A stretch of DNA of 64,000 bases from Acidobacteriota bacterium. GTDB taxonomy: Bacteria > Acidobacteriota > Terriglobia > Terriglobales > Acidobacteriaceae. The notes beneath the pieces were generated by a model that ran no database searches, was not told the origin of the DNA, and saw nothing but the letters and a program-made list of their open reading frames with translations. The position numbers and the translations under genes were made by a program. The stretch lies in the NCBI GenBank assembly GCA_021792135.1, contig JAJYVF010000003.1, forward strand, positions 62,001 through 126,000, written 5' to 3'. Positions 6,456 to 22,134 of this stretch are shown here, piece by piece (position 1 is the stretch's first letter; every line of letters starts with the position of its first letter).

Positions 6456-7513
6456 ATCCGTGGCAGGGGCGGCGCGTCTTCCTCACCGGGCACACCGGCT
6501 TTAAGGGCGGCTGGCTGTCGCTGTGGCTGGCCAGCCGGGGGGCGCAGATTCGCGGATATGCGCTGGAGCCCTCCACCGAGCCGAACATGTTCACCGTGGC
6601 CTCGGTTGGCCGGGTCATCGAGGATTTGCGCGGAGACACCCGCGACCTTCCGAAGCTGCAGGCCTCGATGGTCGAATTCGCGCCTGAGGTCGTGTTCCAT
6701 CTGGCGGCCCAGCCGCTGGTGCGGCACTCCTATATCGATCCGCTGGGCACCTATTCGACCAATGTGATGGGCACCGCGCACGTGATGGAGGCGATCCGCA
6801 ACACGCCCAGCGTGCGCGCCGTGGTCTGCATCACGACGGACAAGTGCTATCACAATCAGGAGTGGGTCTGGGCGTACCGCGAGACGGATGCGCTGGGCGG
6901 TCATGATCCGTATTCCTCGAGCAAAGCCTGCGCGGAGATGGTGGCTGCGGCGTATCGCAGCTCCTTTTTCCCGGTTGACCGGCTGAGTGAACACCAGGTG
7001 CTGCTGGCGACGGTGCGGGCCGGAAACGTGATCGGCGGCGGAGACTGGTCGGGGTACCGGCTCATTCCAGATCTGATCCGCGGATTCGAGGCTGGCGAGC
7101 CGGTTCTGATCCGGCGCCCGGGGGCGGTTCGGCCCTGGCAGCATGTCCTGGAGCCGCTCAGCGGCTATATCCTGCTCGCCGAGAAGCTGCTTGCCAGAAA
7201 TGCCGGTCTGGCATCGGCCTTTAACTTCGGCCCGCAAGACGAAGATACATGGCCTGTGGAACGCATCGCCGACGAGGTGGCAGGGCTTTGGGGCGAAGGC
7301 GCATCGTGGGTGCGGGATTCAGCTCCCACTCCGCACGAGGATCATCTCCTGCGGCTGGATGCGAGCCGGGCCCGGTTCGAGCTTGGCTGGCGACCGCGGC
7401 TGAGGATCGAGACCGCGCTCGAGTGGAGCGTGGCCTGGTACCGCGCGCGCAAGCAGGGCAGGAACATGACCGAATTCACATGGAAGCAGATCGCCGATTA
7501 CGAGAAGCTCTGA
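6440..7513 (+). CDS. rfbG: CDP-glucose 4,6-dehydratase
   Basis: 357 aa extended SDR enzyme making CDP-4-keto-6-deoxy-D-glucose. Seen: NAD-binding VFLTGHTGFKGGWLS near residues 13-27 (the GHTGFKG form is typical of RfbG), HLAAQPLVR, TTDKCYHN and the catalytic YSSSKACAE motif (YxxxK), RAGNVIGGGDWS, and RPWQHVLEPLSGY. The ATG at 6440 is preceded by GGAGGGCGCC; starts at 6419 and 6449 are also possible. It overlaps rfbF by 16 bp, so the two are co-translated. It ends convergently 13 bp from the FkbM methyltransferase. Confidence 0.96.
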   Translation: MEDMVNPWQGRRVFLTGHTGFKGGWLSLWLASRGAQIRGYALEPSTEPNMFTVASVGRVIEDLRGDTRDLPKLQASMVEFAPEVVFHLAAQPLVRHSYIDPLGTYSTNVMGTAHVMEAIRNTPSVRAVVCITTDKCYHNQEWVWAYRETDALGGHDPYSSSKACAEMVAAAYRSSFFPVDRLSEHQVLLATVRAGNVIGGGDWSGYRLIPDLIRGFEAGEPVLIRRPGAVRPWQHVLEPLSGYILLAEKLLARNAGLASAFNFGPQDEDTWPVERIADEVAGLWGEGASWVRDSAPTPHEDHLLRLDASRARFELGWRPRLRIETALEWSVAWYRARKQGRNMTEFTWKQIADYEKL

Positions 7514-7526
7514 ACCTGCGAACGGT

Positions 7527-8555
7527 TCAGTCCGGAAGGCAATAGCAGACGCAGTCCAGGCCATCGGCGTTGTAGGTACGCAATGTGAGGCGGGAGTCAG
7601 GCAACATTTCGTGGAGCTGAAGCGGCAGGCGCCACAGATGGTTGGGAGCGTGATACACGCAGACTGCCAGCTTCGGACGATGGCGGGTAATCGTCCTGCG
7701 TCCGCCTTCGAGGGCATCCGGTTCACTCCCTTCGATGTCGAGCTTGATGTAGGTCGGTGCGATATCTCCGAGCGCCTCATCCAGCGTAATGGTCTCAATG
7801 ACGCAGGTTCCAGTCTCCGAGATTCTCGATCCCGTGCCATCGATAAGCAGGCGAAGAGTCTCCCGTCGCGCGGCGGTGGCATAGGGCCGCAATGAGATTC
7901 GCTGGTCGCCGGCCACTACCCTCTGAAGAGAGGGGAAGTTTGCCGGATCCGGTTCGAAGGCGATGATCCGCGCGAACCGATCATGGCTGGCACGCCGGAA
8001 ATCCTCGATCGTATCGCCGTTGTAAGCCCCGCAATCCACAAAGACCTCATCTTCTTTGATCCGGAACAGATCGTCCGGAAAATACTGGACTCCGGGATCG
8101 ATCACCTGGCCGGACAAGTCGCCCTGCCGCAGCCGTACCTGCCTGTCAAATTCCTCGCGCCCCTGCGGATCGAGCAGTTCGCGGGCCCGCTCGATTTCTT
8201 TATGGTGCCCTGCATAATACTCGGGCTGTTCCCAGAGCAGATGGGGCAAGAGGGTATCTCTGTGCTCACGCAGAAGGGCAAAGAAGGGGATCACGCGCGG
8301 AGCCCCGAACGACCTGAGCTGCGCAATGCGATCCAGCATGCCTTCGGTGCGGCTGGGGTGCCAGATCGCGACAACAAAAGTTGCACGCGGATAGCACTGC
8401 ACGGCCGACTGCGGGGACTCCACCGGGATTCCCTCGACGCGGGAACCCCAGAGGGAGCGATTGTTGTCACAGAACAAGACCGGATGGACCGCCCTCGCAA
8501 CCCGCCGGCCGAGATTGCCGGCGCCGAAGACGACGAACTGATCAGACGAGGTCAT
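7527..8555 (-). CDS. FkbM-family methyltransferase with N-terminal Rossmann-like segment
   Basis: 342 aa. The C-terminal half is an FkbM SAM-dependent methyltransferase: VFVDCGAYNGDT SAM motif, FEPDPANFP, YIKLDIEGSE and the conserved tail AVCVYHAPNHLWRLP. The first 120 residues start FVVFGAGNLGRRVARAV, a nucleotide-binding-like loop also found in other sugar-modifying FkbM proteins. The start at 8555 is chosen because of the GGAGAAG ribosome site just upstream; an in-frame extension to 8687 is unlikely because it would overlap the upstream gene. It probably O-methylates a sugar of the surface polysaccharide. The target is unknown. Confidence 0.85.
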   Translation of the reverse strand: MTSSDQFVVFGAGNLGRRVARAVHPVLFCDNNRSLWGSRVEGIPVESPQSAVQCYPRATFVVAIWHPSRTEGMLDRIAQLRSFGAPRVIPFFALLREHRDTLLPHLLWEQPEYYAGHHKEIERARELLDPQGREEFDRQVRLRQGDLSGQVIDPGVQYFPDDLFRIKEDEVFVDCGAYNGDTIEDFRRASHDRFARIIAFEPDPANFPSLQRVVAGDQRISLRPYATAARRETLRLLIDGTGSRISETGTCVIETITLDEALGDIAPTYIKLDIEGSEPDALEGGRRTITRHRPKLAVCVYHAPNHLWRLPLQLHEMLPDSRLTLRTYNADGLDCVCYCLPD

Positions 8556-17429: not shown

Positions 17430-17563
17430 TTTGAGGCAGACCAAACGAGAGCGTAACAAAAATGGCGGCTCTGCTGAAGAGGGGGTGTTTGCGAGTGGCC
17501 AGTGAAGGTGAACTGAAGGCGTCGAGCGAATACTCGGCGCCCCGCCGCCAGCTTCGAGGCACA

Positions 17564-18775
17564 ATGCGGGGCGCATTTCTCAGCGCAATCGGGTGGGCGC
17601 TGTCCGTTGTTGCTGTGACTCAGACGATCCTGACGCGAGCTCTGGTGAAGATCCCGCGCCGCGTCGCCGTTGGGCGAATCGAGCGCATTCTGGTCGTGAG
17701 GCTGGACGAACTGGGCGATCTGGTAATGACCTGGCCGCTCATTCATGCGCTCAGATCCTGCCTTCCGGAAGCTGAGTTGACGCTGCTCGTCAACCAGTCT
17801 GTGCTGGGAATTACGGAGGGAATGGCCGGCATTCGGGTTATCGGCGTGAATGTGAGGTGCAGCAAGCTGCTCCGCCAATTTGTCCTGCCAGTTCGCCATT
17901 ATCGTTTTGTGCGAAAGTATCTCCGGAACGAACAATTCGACGTCTGTCTGCTGCCACGACGGGATTCCGATGATGTAGCTGCCACAATGCTTGCATACTT
18001 TACACGTGCCACGCGGCGGATTTCATTTTCCGAAAAGAGCACCCCCCGAAAGGCCATTACGAACCGATCGTTTGATTCCCTCCTGACAGACGTCCTTTCC
18101 GCACCGCCCGTCCAGCACGAAACCAGGACCAACCTGAGCCTTCTGGCCGCCATTGGCGTCCACCCAATCGCCCGTTCCTGCCCTCTTCCGCTGACCGACG
18201 CCACCGTCCGTTTTGCGGAAAATTCTCTTCCCCTGGCCGACGCGACCTACGTTGCCATTTGTCCAACTTCCGGGCATTCCAGGCTCAAGCAGTGGGGGGC
18301 GGAAAGGTTTGCTGAAGTCGCCTCTCGTCTGACGGCGTCCGGGATTTCGGTGGTCCTCATTGGAGGACCGGCAGATTCGCCGCTGGGGTCTGTGATTCAA
18401 GATGCATGTGAGGGAAATTGTCTGAATTTCATCGGCAGGACTTCTCTCCTCGAAATGGCAGCGCTGCTGGCAAGATGCGCCGCGTTTCTCGGAAACGATG
18501 CCGGCCCCACGCACGTTGCCTCCGCGCTTGGAATTGGCACAGTTGGAGTCTTCGGTTCGAGCTGCTGGCATCAGTTCGGGCCATGGACCGGCAGGCAATC
18601 GGTGATTGTCCGCGAAATCAGCTGCTCACCATGCATCGGCCATTCGAAGAACCGCTGTGATGTCTGCCTGTACAGCAAACCGATTTGCCTTGAACAAATC
18701 ACGACGGCTGAGGTCCTGGAGGCCGTCACGGCGATTGCCGGGGCGAAACCGAGGCCAGCTAAGTTGCGCAACTAG
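17564..18775 (+). CDS. Family 9 glycosyltransferase (heptosyltransferase-like)
   Basis: 403 aa GT-B enzyme. Diagnostic parts: ILVVRLDELGDLVMTWPLIHALR near the N-terminus, VAICPTSGHSRLKQWGAERF, VLIGGPADSP, and FLGNDAGPTHVASALGIGTVGVFGSS, the ADP-heptose-binding loop. A Cys-rich tail (SCSPCIGHSKNRCDVC) resembles the CxxC region found in many GT9 proteins. Its presence with gmhA and hddC-type genes at 20.3-22.1 kb supports a heptosyl donor. ATG 17564 has GAGG nearby; 17462 is an alternative upstream start. Confidence 0.88.
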   Translation: MRGAFLSAIGWALSVVAVTQTILTRALVKIPRRVAVGRIERILVVRLDELGDLVMTWPLIHALRSCLPEAELTLLVNQSVLGITEGMAGIRVIGVNVRCSKLLRQFVLPVRHYRFVRKYLRNEQFDVCLLPRRDSDDVAATMLAYFTRATRRISFSEKSTPRKAITNRSFDSLLTDVLSAPPVQHETRTNLSLLAAIGVHPIARSCPLPLTDATVRFAENSLPLADATYVAICPTSGHSRLKQWGAERFAEVASRLTASGISVVLIGGPADSPLGSVIQDACEGNCLNFIGRTSLLEMAALLARCAAFLGNDAGPTHVASALGIGTVGVFGSSCWHQFGPWTGRQSVIVREISCSPCIGHSKNRCDVCLYSKPICLEQITTAEVLEAVTAIAGAKPRPAKLRN

Positions 18776-18797: not shown

Positions 18798-20036
18798 TTA
18801 TGGGGATAGCGGGCGGTCTTTCGCCGCCAAATTCCCGAGCGCCTTCGCCGGATGGCGTACTGTCCCGCCGACCCAGGTATTCAGCGACTCCAGAAAAAGC
18901 GGAATCAGGAGAGAGAACTCCAGCATGTTTTTTACCAGGGAAACCGAGAAAGGATCGCGGAAGAATGTGAAAGCGATAAATCCGGTCAGCATCAGGTAAG
19001 GTACGGTCAGTTTTTCGTGTCGCCGCATCAGGTATCCAAACAAGAACAGAAATACAACAGTTCCGACAAGGCCGAAATTGACGTTAAAGGAGACCCATGA
19101 GTTCATCGCCCCTACCGGGCTGCTTATTTCGTAGTGTGAGTCTGCCAGGGTTTGGAGGTTCTGTTTATTTACCAGCGCCGATGGGATGAGATTGTACAGA
19201 TCACCAAGCAGAAAGGCAGGGGCCTTGATCCAGGCAATTGGATTGGCATGAAGATAAGAGAAAAGAGAGAACGAAGTGAAGAGCGATTCCGTTGCAACAT
19301 TCAGAAAAATGAGAAGAATCGACGCCGGGGTATGCATGCGCAGCACCCCGATGATTCCCATGAGGCAAATGGCAGCGACTCCACCAATCAGCAGCACTTT
19401 GGTTCGGATCGGTTTGCGGTGTGAGAAATAAATCAGAAGTGTCAGGATGCTGCTTACGAAGTAGAGCCTGCCGCCAATCGTGAGCAAAACCACGGCACAG
19501 ATAAAATAGCCCACCATAAATCCCCAGCGATCTTCGAGCCCGAACCTCAGTGAGACGGAGAACAATACGAGCGAGATGGCGACCAGCGTGCCGACAACAA
19601 GGAGATTGTTCTCGGAGTAGGCCTGAAAAAATACATCGTAGTCTTTGAGACAGGCGCCCAGAAAGATCAGGAGGACGATGATCCATTCGGCTCGCCAGAG
19701 CTTTGACTCAAACGTTCGTGGTCGCCGGGAGGAGCGCCTCGCCCGAATGATCGGGTGGGTACCCAGCAGATCACCGGACGCGAATGCAAGATAACAGGCG
19801 AGAATCGAGGCACCATAGCCGAAGATTCGCGATGTCGGAATCTGGTTGAGGTAACTGGTCAGTCCTGATGCGACATCCGGGATGGGGATTATCCCCAGAA
19901 GGCTGGGAAGCCACCAGTAGAAGAGATAACCGGCGGTAAATGTCGTGACATGATTAATCTCGATGCCGCCCGGACGCCGAGATCTGGCGAACGCATACGC
20001 GACAGCGACAATCGCAGTGAGCCAGGGAAGCCACAC
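18798..20036 (-). CDS. Wzy-like O-antigen/exopolysaccharide polymerase
   Basis: 412 aa polytopic membrane protein with about ten hydrophobic segments and a large extracytoplasmic loop in the C-terminal half (roughly 260-330, containing WIKAPAFLLGDLYNLIPSALVN). The layout, length and location in a flippase/transferase cluster match Wzy polymerases, whose sequences are poorly conserved. The start is GTG at 20036; no clear ribosome site. It is convergent with the GT9 gene (22 bp gap). Confidence 0.7.
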   Translation of the reverse strand: MWLPWLTAIVAVAYAFARSRRPGGIEINHVTTFTAGYLFYWWLPSLLGIIPIPDVASGLTSYLNQIPTSRIFGYGASILACYLAFASGDLLGTHPIIRARRSSRRPRTFESKLWRAEWIIVLLIFLGACLKDYDVFFQAYSENNLLVVGTLVAISLVLFSVSLRFGLEDRWGFMVGYFICAVVLLTIGGRLYFVSSILTLLIYFSHRKPIRTKVLLIGGVAAICLMGIIGVLRMHTPASILLIFLNVATESLFTSFSLFSYLHANPIAWIKAPAFLLGDLYNLIPSALVNKQNLQTLADSHYEISSPVGAMNSWVSFNVNFGLVGTVVFLFLFGYLMRRHEKLTVPYLMLTGFIAFTFFRDPFSVSLVKNMLEFSLLIPLFLESLNTWVGGTVRHPAKALGNLAAKDRPLSP

Positions 20037-20272
20037 GGGCAGATTATTTCATTTGGCGGCATCCCATGACTACACCTTCGAAACTGCGCAAATCCCCGGG
20101 GCCGTGATTTCAGGATGTACGGTGACCTGCTCCCCGGAAGATGGTTCAGTGAAAATGTGACTTCTTCGACAAGCTGGCCCGGCAGGGCCGAGTGGAGAGA
20201 CCGTCATCGTTCATCGCGGGTGGCGCACCCCCTTGCGCAGAGTGTTCGTTCACTCAGCTCCACGCAGCGAGG

Positions 20273-21523
20273 TCAGCGGGAGGACCCTGCTTGCCGAAGC
20301 TCATCGGTGCGCTGCCTGTCCAGCTCGAAAATCAGCGGTCGCGCCAAATCCAGGATGTTGCCTCCCTCCGAGAAATGCGCCGGAGCACCGAGGTTGGCCC
20401 CATTCGCCATGGTTCTTTCCCCGATTAGCACGCGGCATTTCGGATCAACGCCCCACCTCCTGGCGAGGTCGAGCAGCATATCAATAGTGGGCTCCGGTCG
20501 AGCCGATGCTTCGCTGAAGCATTCCGGGATTCTGTCCGGTGCCGCGACGATATGCATTTCGTCGATGGTTGCTCCGTACGCGAGCAGGTCATTGTTCACC
20601 CGGCTGGAAAGCTCCTTCAGATCTTCTCCGGAGATTTCCGCGCATGAATCGCCGGTCCGTGCTGCCACCAGGAATGCATGGATACCGGAATCATTGGCCA
20701 TGCGAATGGCGTCCACTGCGCCCGGTTTCCAGGGAATGCGATCCTGCCCTTCGGCCAGGCTGTCGGGCTGATCGAGCAGCACGCCCGCCTCGAAAACGAT
20801 GGCCGGTCGCAGGAGCCGTCTGGGCAGCTCCACGCCGGCGCGCTCGTAGTCCGACGGAATGCCGATGTCGATGAAGTAGCCGTCGAGAACGCACCCGGAG
20901 AGCCGGCCTTCTCTGGCCAGAGCCGGCAAAATTTCCCGCTCGAGCGAGCAGAGGGGAGACAGCTGCGCCAGCACGGAGCGATCGAAAATGTAGAGCCCGC
21001 CGTTGATCAGGCCCGGCCCGCTGAGCGGCGATTTCTCGTGGAGAGCGACAATGCGCTCGCCCTCCAGTTCCACTCGTCCGTAGCGGCTGCAGTCCGGCAT
21101 GGAGCGAAGCAGAACCGAGCCGGCCATTTCCGGCGGGGCCGCGGCGCGGGCAAAGAACCGCGCCAGATTCACATCGATCCACGAATCGCCGTTGATGACC
21201 AGGAAGGTATCTTCCAGCAGGTGGCGCGCATGCCAAAGGGCGCCACCGGTACCTGCAGGCGAAGGCTCCACGGATACGCTGATGGACAGGGGTTTGGGAA
21301 GCCAGGATGCGGCGGCGCGGCAGAAGCTCTCGGTTCGTTCAGATTTGTAGCCGGCCAGCAGCACGATGTCCGTGATGCCGAAGCGCGAAAGCTCGCGCAG
21401 GACCCAGGCGAGGAAGGGGCGGCCACCGCAGTCGAGAAGAGGTTTGGGTGTGTCCGCCGTTAACGAGCCCAGCCGCGTGCCCAGCCCGCCGACCAGGATC
21501 GCGCACTGGCGGGGAATCTTCAC
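20273..21523 (-). CDS. HddC-like nucleotidyltransferase fused to a degenerate GmhB-like HAD domain
   Basis: 416 aa. Residues 6-235 are a sugar-nucleotidyltransferase ([56 protein letters not shown]) close to the D-glycero-D-manno-heptose-1-phosphate guanylyltransferase group. Residues 240-395 align end to end with histidinol-phosphatase/GmhB HAD-IIIA proteins but every catalytic element is altered: the DxDG loop is VFEAGVLLD (Glu245 for the nucleophile, second Asp missing), TNQSG is AARTG, the Cys/His zinc site is absent (SEASARPEP), and GDxxxD is GERTMAN. The phosphatase half is therefore predicted to be inactive. GTG start overlaps the gmhA stop by 4 bp. No hddA-type kinase is in view. Confidence 0.85.
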
Positions 21524-22134
21524 CCGGCGGCCTGCAGTTCGGCTCTGCGGCTGAAGACCCGCTTCTCCACCAGGCCGCAGACCAGATGGGCGGCAGTGAT
21601 ATGAATCTGCTGGATCACGGAAGTCTTCGCAGAGGGTGCGCAGAAAATCTGATCACAGAGCGCTGCCATCGGTCCTGCCGCCGCACCGGTGAACCCAAGG
21701 GTCACAATCCCGCGGGAGCGGGCCGCCTCCAGCGCGCGCAGCACGTTGGGTGATTTCCCCGAAGTGGAGATGGCCAGGAAAACATCGCCGGGGACGCCCA
21801 AACCGAGAACCTGGCGTTCGAAGACCTTCTCGTACCCGTAATCGTTGCCGATGGCCGTCAGCACCGAGGTGTCGGTGGTCAGCGCGACAGCCGGAAGCGG
21901 GGCGCGATCGAAGAAGAGCCTGGAGACGAACTCGCCCGCGATGTGCTGCGCATCACCCGCGCTGCCTCCGTTTCCGGCCACCAGCAATTTGTGGCCCCCG
22001 GCCAGCGCGCCCGTAATCGCATCCGCAAATCCCAGAATGGTTCGGTGCGCCGCTGTGTCGGCAGCAAACTCCTCGACAGCCCGCAGCGACTCGTCGAGAT
22101 ACCGGGCGACAAATTCCCGCTCTGAAGACTCCAT
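21520..22134 (-). CDS. gmhA: Sedoheptulose-7-phosphate isomerase
   Basis: 204 aa SIS-domain isomerase converting sedoheptulose 7-phosphate to D-glycero-D-manno-heptose 7-phosphate, the first step of ADP- and GDP-heptose synthesis. Seen: [52 protein letters not shown] and the C-terminal [16 protein letters not shown], all GmhA hallmarks including the catalytic Glu/His regions. It is the promoter-proximal gene of a two-gene operon with the hddC-like fusion. Confidence 0.93.

Follow-up and report, generated by a model that had tools for sequence, protein, structure and literature searches.

The window, by which we mean the whole stretch of 64,000 nucleotides that was analysed, carries on its minus strand a gene in which an HddC-type sugar-1-phosphate nucleotidyltransferase is fused to a degenerate GmhB/HAD-IIIA domain. 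The stop of the upstream GmhA gene and the GTG start of the fusion share four bases (GTGA). The genes of the locus and the two domains of the fusion are the following:

21520..22134, minus strand: GmhA-type sedoheptulose-7-phosphate isomerase (NF010546, 184 bits, cut-off 276)
20273..21523, minus strand: the fusion gene itself (416 aa from a GTG start), which encodes an HddC-type sugar-1-phosphate nucleotidyltransferase joined to a degenerate GmhB/HAD-IIIA domain
20816..21511, minus strand: N-terminal nucleotidyltransferase domain of the fusion, residues 5-236 (PF00483, NF049965, fold match to 5xhw, motif positions)
20318..20809, minus strand: degenerate GmhB-fold domain of the fusion, residues 239-402 (TIGR01656 below cut-off, alignments, predicted fold)
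18798..20036, minus strand: possible oligosaccharide repeat-unit polymerase, the next gene downstream (TIGR04370, 23.7 bits, below the cut-off of 40)
17462..18775, plus strand: GT9 heptosyltransferase-like gene, from its first possible start (PF01075, 117.9 bits; TIGR02201, 122 bits, below the cut-off of 170)

With a GmhA gene, a GT9 heptosyltransferase-like gene and a weakly matching polymerase gene as neighbours, the locus is likely to serve a heptose-containing surface polysaccharide. An open reading frame on the opposite strand at 20115-20771 was dismissed as a gene, as it had no Pfam match at E up to 1.

The N-terminal domain has the expected features of its family. Pfam NTP_transferase (PF00483) spans residues 9-230 with 91.4 bits (curated cut-off 21.2), and the signatures GGLGTRL at 12, PKPL at 26, NGDS at 111 and DIG at 219 lie in columns that are invariant or nearly so in an alignment of 15 fusions. 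The top solved fold match was HddC of Y. pseudotuberculosis (5xhw; Z 28.7, rmsd 2.0, 221 aligned), tied with human GMPPA/GMPPB entries (Z 28.4). The best NCBIfam model was likewise that of HddC (NF049965), at 132 bits and under its equivalog cut-off of 300, which the intact fusion of a genome of the same family, G017, also misses (141.8 bits). The protein is therefore named "HddC-type" and not HddC, and we infer its heptose specificity; on its sequence it is most likely a working sugar-1-phosphate nucleotidyltransferase of the HddC type that acts on heptose-1-phosphate.

Three genomes are compared throughout: the window's own genome (G000, 77 contigs); a second species of the genus (G203, about 500 contigs, 87% complete), whose fusion locus is called L055; and G017, which carries an intact orthologue of the fusion. 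Homology extends over both domains, with 52% identity to the G017 protein over residues 2-397 and 58% to that of G203 over residues 1-401.

The C-terminal domain scores far lower on the models of its family. TIGR01656 (histidinol-phosphatase/GmhB, HAD-IIIA) matched residues 247-382 with 31.5 bits, below its cut-off of 84.15, and no Pfam HAD model was found at E up to 1 when the C-terminal piece was searched alone. On TIGR01656 the intact G017 fusion reaches 109; its scores of 134 and 126 with two GmhB models lie under the cut-offs of those models (178 and 149.6). The G017 protein, with its motifs FFDRDGVLNED, TNQAG, RKP and GDKESD, served as the reference for residue loss. The nucleophile and acid motif of GmhB is given as DXDX(T/V) in PMC8204981. 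By alignment to G017, the catalytic positions in the window protein are:

20789..20791, minus strand: position of the nucleophile Asp, now Glu245 (the position of the acid Asp is Gly247)
20657..20665, minus strand: position of the Thr-Asn-Gln loop, now Ala287-Ala288-Arg289
20492..20494, minus strand: Lys of RKP, now Glu344, a K-to-E change also seen in L055
20417..20419, minus strand: position of the motif IV Asp (GDxxxD), now Glu369

In the same alignment, the Arg-Lys of RKP corresponds to P343-E344, and the last Asp of motif IV falls in a gap. The DXDX(T/V) motif of active GmhB is thus replaced (E245, G247), as are the S/T motif (A287), the Lys (E344) and (G/S)DXX(N/T)D (E369 and the gap). 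The full catalytic set is intact in 29 of the 32 fused proteins whose C-domain was covered, the exceptions being the window protein, L055 and L059. Phosphatase activity is probably absent from the C-domain of the window protein. In L059, from the Acetobacteraceae MAG palsa_911, the reading frame seems to be shifted within the phosphatase domain, which may reflect an error in assembly or a separate loss.

The zinc site has to be treated separately. The zinc-binding positions of E. coli GmhB form the motif C-x-H ... C-x-C. At the aligned positions the Cys/His site is absent from the window C-domain, but at least one ligand is also missing in 24 of the 29 catalytically intact fused relatives. Loss of the zinc site was therefore dismissed as a sign of a dead phosphatase, and an incomplete site does not indicate lost catalytic residues in HddC-GmhB fusions. 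Zinc binding may have been lost across much of this fusion family.

The fold of the degenerate half seems to be kept. In the model of the whole protein (mean pLDDT 86.2), the segments below 50 are residues 290-295 and 335-340, which are former active-site loops. As the fold matches listed for the whole protein were all nucleotidyltransferases, the C-domain was also modelled separately (pLDDT 80.5, pTM 0.82). Of the solved structures with which this model was compared, E. coli GmhB came closest (155 residues aligned, with Z 15.2 and rmsd 3.0 A). The alignments used for prediction, of 15 rows each, held intact homologues, so the model indicates compatibility with the GmhB fold and is not proof of it. 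Together with the Pfam match of the N-domain, this agrees with the earlier note, which had described 20273-21523 as a heptose nucleotidyltransferase fused to a domain of the GmhB fold in which the nucleophile, the acid Asp, the TNQSG loop and the GDxxxD acid are missing; each of these losses is found in the alignment. The note had also listed the Cys/His zinc site, which is indeed absent, although its absence does not mark the domain as dead.

The fusion was found in two of the 12 genomes of the genus that were examined, G000 and G203. L055 is also degenerate, by different changes: its nucleophile Asp is still present, as is the GD of motif IV, but the acid Asp, the Thr/Asn, the Lys and the final acid have gone, together with about 20 residues of the C-domain. 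Common to both proteins are the K-to-E change at RKP and the loss of the acid Asp, the Thr/Asn and the final acid. The C-domain of L055 still lies above the cut-off of the Pfam HAD model PF13242 (23.8 vs 22 bits), and with this margin of 1.8 bits, the nucleophile Asp and the GD kept, residual phosphatase activity in L055 is conceivable. Both frames are free of stops and frameshifts. In G017 the intact orthologue lies in an operon of HddA, GmhA and HddC/GmhB, whose GmhA is 69.5% identical to that of the window. The GmhA beside the L055 fusion (3492-4073 in L055) is of a different lineage, 50-52% identical to the GmhA of the window and of G017, and lies downstream rather than upstream of the fusion, which indicates that this locus has been rearranged.

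The wider search gave no close full-length orthologue beyond G000, G203 and G017 among 398 genomes of the family, 397 of the order, 399 of the class and 396 of the phylum, in draws that overlap and with the best four first-look candidates scored per genome. A draw of 200 genomes at a looser limit also gave distant fusions, among them the intact L039, L042 and L043. From the best 80 of 391 relatives, 39 open frames were picked by hand as long enough for a fusion or otherwise of interest; seven of them had no covered C-domain, which left the 32 counted above. The 39 did not include L072 and L098, in which the match extends into the C-part but the open frame is short. The earlier note had proposed to compare orthologues, with shared degenerate sites in its favour and an intact HAD site against it. 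Both were found, the former in L055 and the latter in G017, and because the intact orthologue belongs to the same family, the loss of the active site is specific to a lineage.

If the fused phosphatase is dead, the missing step would have to be provided from elsewhere. The earlier note had placed another phosphatase and an HddA kinase outside the window, and candidates for both are present in the genome. On contig C75 lies a second sugar-nucleotide module with heptose features (5481-12657 in L051, G000:C75:4000-22000), with counterparts in G017 and G203. It encodes a GmhA-like SIS protein (42 bits), an intact GmhB (107 bits on TIGR01656), a transaldolase (303 bits; 6848-7693, minus strand, in L051), an epimerase-like gene and an HddA-like kinase with 138 bits, against a cut-off of 600 that the HddA of the G017 operon also misses (351). 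Its nucleotidyltransferase scores higher on the MurU model (97 bits) than on the HddC model (58 bits), and being closer to MurU it makes C75 a GDP-heptose module only on a tentative assignment. On contig C39, HldE (541 bits, over its cut-off) is accompanied by a second intact GmhB, the usual ADP-heptose pair.

The genome has four GHMP kinase matches, none of them on the window's contig. A remnant of the operon HddA in the window was considered and dismissed, since tblastn with the G017 HddA gave no match there at E up to 1e-8. Its best counterpart in the G000 stretches compared is the C75 kinase (29% identity), and in G203 its counterparts reach 28% (C391) and 32% (C393). G203 has counterparts of both the C75 and the C39 loci, while G017 has a C75-type locus and, besides the fusion, one GmhB over the cut-off. 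HldE is over its cut-off in G000 and G203 and not in G017, in a comparison of three genomes of which G203 is 87% complete. With the same three genomes and the same completeness, it is suggestive that the two with a dead fusion own one more stand-alone GmhB than the one with a live fusion.

Two further frames touch on this inventory. At G000:C46:49487-49903 (L164), a frame of 170 aa matches the nucleotidyltransferase half of HldE alone (158 bits, model positions 333-472), in addition to the full HldE of C39. The window itself has, at about 1860-2520 on the minus strand, a phosphoglycolate-phosphatase-like HAD protein that retains its catalytic motifs (FDLDGT, ISNKP and GDTIDD) and is not a GmhB.

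There is precedent for a phosphatase acting from outside its cluster. According to PMC10680097, the GDP-heptose pathway of C. jejuni HS:2 uses a GmhB encoded elsewhere, and in PMC8204981 the core defect of E. coli without gmhB is partial, pointing to substitute phosphatases. The latter source also describes an anomeric preference of GmhB enzymes, and for this reason the ADP-heptose GmhB of C39 may substitute less well than the GmhB of C75.

The two halves of the fusion have evolved at very different rates. Between the window protein and L055, identity is 72% in the N-half and 36% in the C-half, and between the window protein and G017 it is 65% and 32%; in intact pairs the halves are about equal (51/51% for G017-L058, 66/64% for L056-L058). 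The fitted dN ratio of the C- to the N-domain is 3.2 for window-L055, 2.3 for window-G017 and 1.9 for L055-G017, compared with 0.83-0.93 in five intact pairs. In trees of 31 proteins, from which L059 and the seven without a covered C-domain were left out, the N/C distances are 0.43/1.68 for window-L055, 1.05/0.78 for L022-L056 and 0.60/0.52 for L056-L058. The branch that parts the window protein and L055 from the rest has a length of 0.47 with support 100 in the C tree, and of 0.05 with support 66 in the N tree. This long stem indicates that much of the change came before the two species parted, although fast-evolving lineages can be drawn together in trees. Along with the shared K-to-E change, it suggests that the active site was lost before the species split. 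As two degenerate sequences were found, both the age of the loss and the strength of selection rest on one pair.

Relative to the intact fusions, the dead half has changed about 3.5 times (dN) to 5 times (tree distances) too fast. This could be explained by passive decay, with the C-domain a functionless, eroding passenger that still looks foldable because misfolding would be harmful to the enzyme joined to it or because too little time has passed. The deletion of about 20 residues in L055 fits this as well. We regard such decay as a somewhat unlikely explanation.

A direct dN/dS of the dead domain (omega 0.03-0.04) was discarded because the fit was saturated (dS 16 and 23), and rates were instead set against the N-domain and other genes of the same genomes. 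Between G000 and G203, identity is 76% for the C39 GmhB, 62% for the C75 GmhB, 84% for the C75 HddA and 77% for HldE. The fitted dS, near saturation in all cases, is 2.1-3.7 for three C39 genes, 3.0 for the C75 HddA and 4.0 for the N-domain of the fusion; for the C39 GmhB pair, which saturates (dS 44), identity alone was used. Dividing the dead-domain dN of 0.64 by a dS of 2.1-4.0 gives a rough ratio of 0.16-0.30, with synonymous sites near saturation, compared with 0.048 for the N-domain. An omega of 1 was rejected for the dead domain on these saturated data (2 delta lnL 25.6), which speaks against passive decay. On the dN/dS check proposed in the earlier note, selection to keep the domain has some support, from near-saturated data of a single pair.

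Neutral simulations point the same way if the loss is old. At a divergence of 2, the mean identity was 0.09-0.11 with a maximum of 0.21 in 300 pairs, and at a divergence of 4 it was 0.06-0.10 with a maximum of 0.16, far below the observed 0.36. At most 1 of 300 simulated pairs was stop-free at either divergence, and in both real species the frame has no stop. At a divergence of 0.5, however, the mean identity (0.36-0.38) equalled the observed value, with 18 of 300 pairs stop-free under a GC-rich composition and 0 of 300 under a flat one. A late and independent loss in the two lineages therefore still fits the identity alone, and if the loss was recent and independent, the case against passive decay largely fades.

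The distribution of the changes is also informative. In three intact pairs the active-site loops are more conserved (0.59-0.70) than the helices and strands (0.42-0.55), and in window-L055 this is reversed, with 0.22 in the active-site loops (13 further positions being gapped), 0.40 in helices and strands and 0.44 in other loops, a contrast within the pair that is not significant alone (Fisher P 0.06). The codon-position GC pattern is kept but weaker, with a GC3 of 0.68 in the dead domain and 0.79 in the N-domain. Loops that drift more than the core, and a codon pattern that persists, speak against passive decay. On these comparisons, constraint on the dead half is clearly relaxed, although some would remain if the loss dates back to the species split. 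The earlier note had argued that the change is not decay since no frameshift occurs. The intact frame stands and is shared by a second species, but the argument was too strong in view of the low identity of the C-half and the deletion in L055.

Our preferred explanation, which we hold to be rather more probable than its alternatives taken together, is that the fused phosphatase half became a redundant pseudoenzyme, retained under weak constraint for a structural role in the nucleotidyltransferase. The ancestor would have held an operon of the G017 type, with HddA kinase, GmhA isomerase and HddC/GmhB fusion. On the line leading to the window's species, other GmhB enzymes, in the C75 heptose module and the C39 ADP-heptose locus, may have made the phosphatase step redundant; the operon HddA would have been lost, and the active site of the phosphatase would have gone, probably before that species and L055 split. 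GmhA would now make heptose-7-phosphate, which an HddA-like kinase and a stand-alone GmhB from other loci would turn into heptose-1-phosphate, and the N-domain of the window protein would activate the latter for use by the GT9 and other transferases. The supply of the kinase and phosphatase steps in trans is thus presumed from the genes found. The core of the dead domain would meanwhile be under weak purifying selection, while its catalytic loops drift. The domain may have escaped deletion because folding, stability or assembly of the nucleotidyltransferase still depends on it. This structural role is inferred; none of the computed results demonstrates a dependence of the N-domain on the C-domain.

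A new function of the remodelled domain is an improbable alternative, in which it would bind a ligand such as a heptose phosphate or a nucleotide, or dock a separate GmhB, and so regulate or channel the nucleotidyltransferase. Regulatory C-terminal domains are known in sugar nucleotidyltransferases, the fold is apparently kept with the catalytic groups replaced, and stretches like LLAYGATID are identical in both degenerate proteins. The ATID of that stretch, however, resembles the GGTIDD found in intact relatives. Conservation between the window protein and L055 is lowest in the loops of the former pocket (9 of 41 positions identical), the opposite of what a shared new binding site would give. 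Equally doubtful is the more specific proposal that the dead domain links the nucleotidyltransferase to the pathway encoded elsewhere, either by recruiting the GmhB of C75 or C39 or by sensing a heptose phosphate. Of the structural or regulatory role suggested in the earlier note, a plain structural role fits the same data, while docking and regulation have no direct support.

Leftover phosphatase activity by an unusual mechanism, with Glu245 as the nucleophile, is very improbable: the residue at the nucleophile position is acidic in the window protein and an Asp in L055, but the acid Asp, the Thr/Asn, the Lys and the motif IV Asp, conserved in nearly all fused relatives, have gone from the window protein. 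An artefact of sequencing, assembly or annotation, for which the many contigs of both genomes could be cited, was dismissed as next to impossible, since another genome of the same genus has its own, different degenerate sequence, no frameshift or stop interrupts the frame and the opposite-strand frame matches no Pfam family.

Taking the redundant pseudoenzyme as the preferred reading, the locus illustrates by comparison how a catalytic domain within a fusion can become a pseudoenzyme: the family still has an intact operon, two species have degenerate proteins, and candidates for replacement genes lie in the window's own genome. It is also a warning for annotation, as the name HddC/GmhB fusion does not guarantee that a protein has both functions. 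The result bears on the heptose route to surface polysaccharides in these bacteria and would surprise few specialists. No description of a dead or fused heptose nucleotidyltransferase-GmhB was found in the literature searched, which included the available parts of PMC10680097, PMC8204981 and PMC1963479. The fusion enzyme family itself is known, and the form with a dead phosphatase is a modest addition to it.

Compared with known systems, the window protein resembles HddC of Y. pseudotuberculosis (5xhw) in the fold, NCBIfam model and signatures of its N-domain and in having GmhA as an overlapping neighbour; it differs in its score under the equivalog cut-off (132 of 300 bits) and in bearing a C-terminal HAD domain. 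That domain resembles the GmhB phosphatases of the HAD-IIIA type (E. coli 2gmw/3l8e, B. bronchiseptica 3l8h) in its predicted fold and by homology through the intact fused orthologues, but every catalytic motif is replaced and the scores lie below the family cut-offs. The nearest relatives as a whole are the HddC-GmhB fusions of G017 and of Alphaproteobacteria, Bacteroidales and others (in L056-L123), which have the same domain order and a similar length and, apart from L059 and the degenerate pair of the window protein and L055, keep the catalytic set. Pseudoenzyme domains in fused enzymes form a general class in which a catalytic domain stays after its active site is lost, and in this respect the window fusion is like them.
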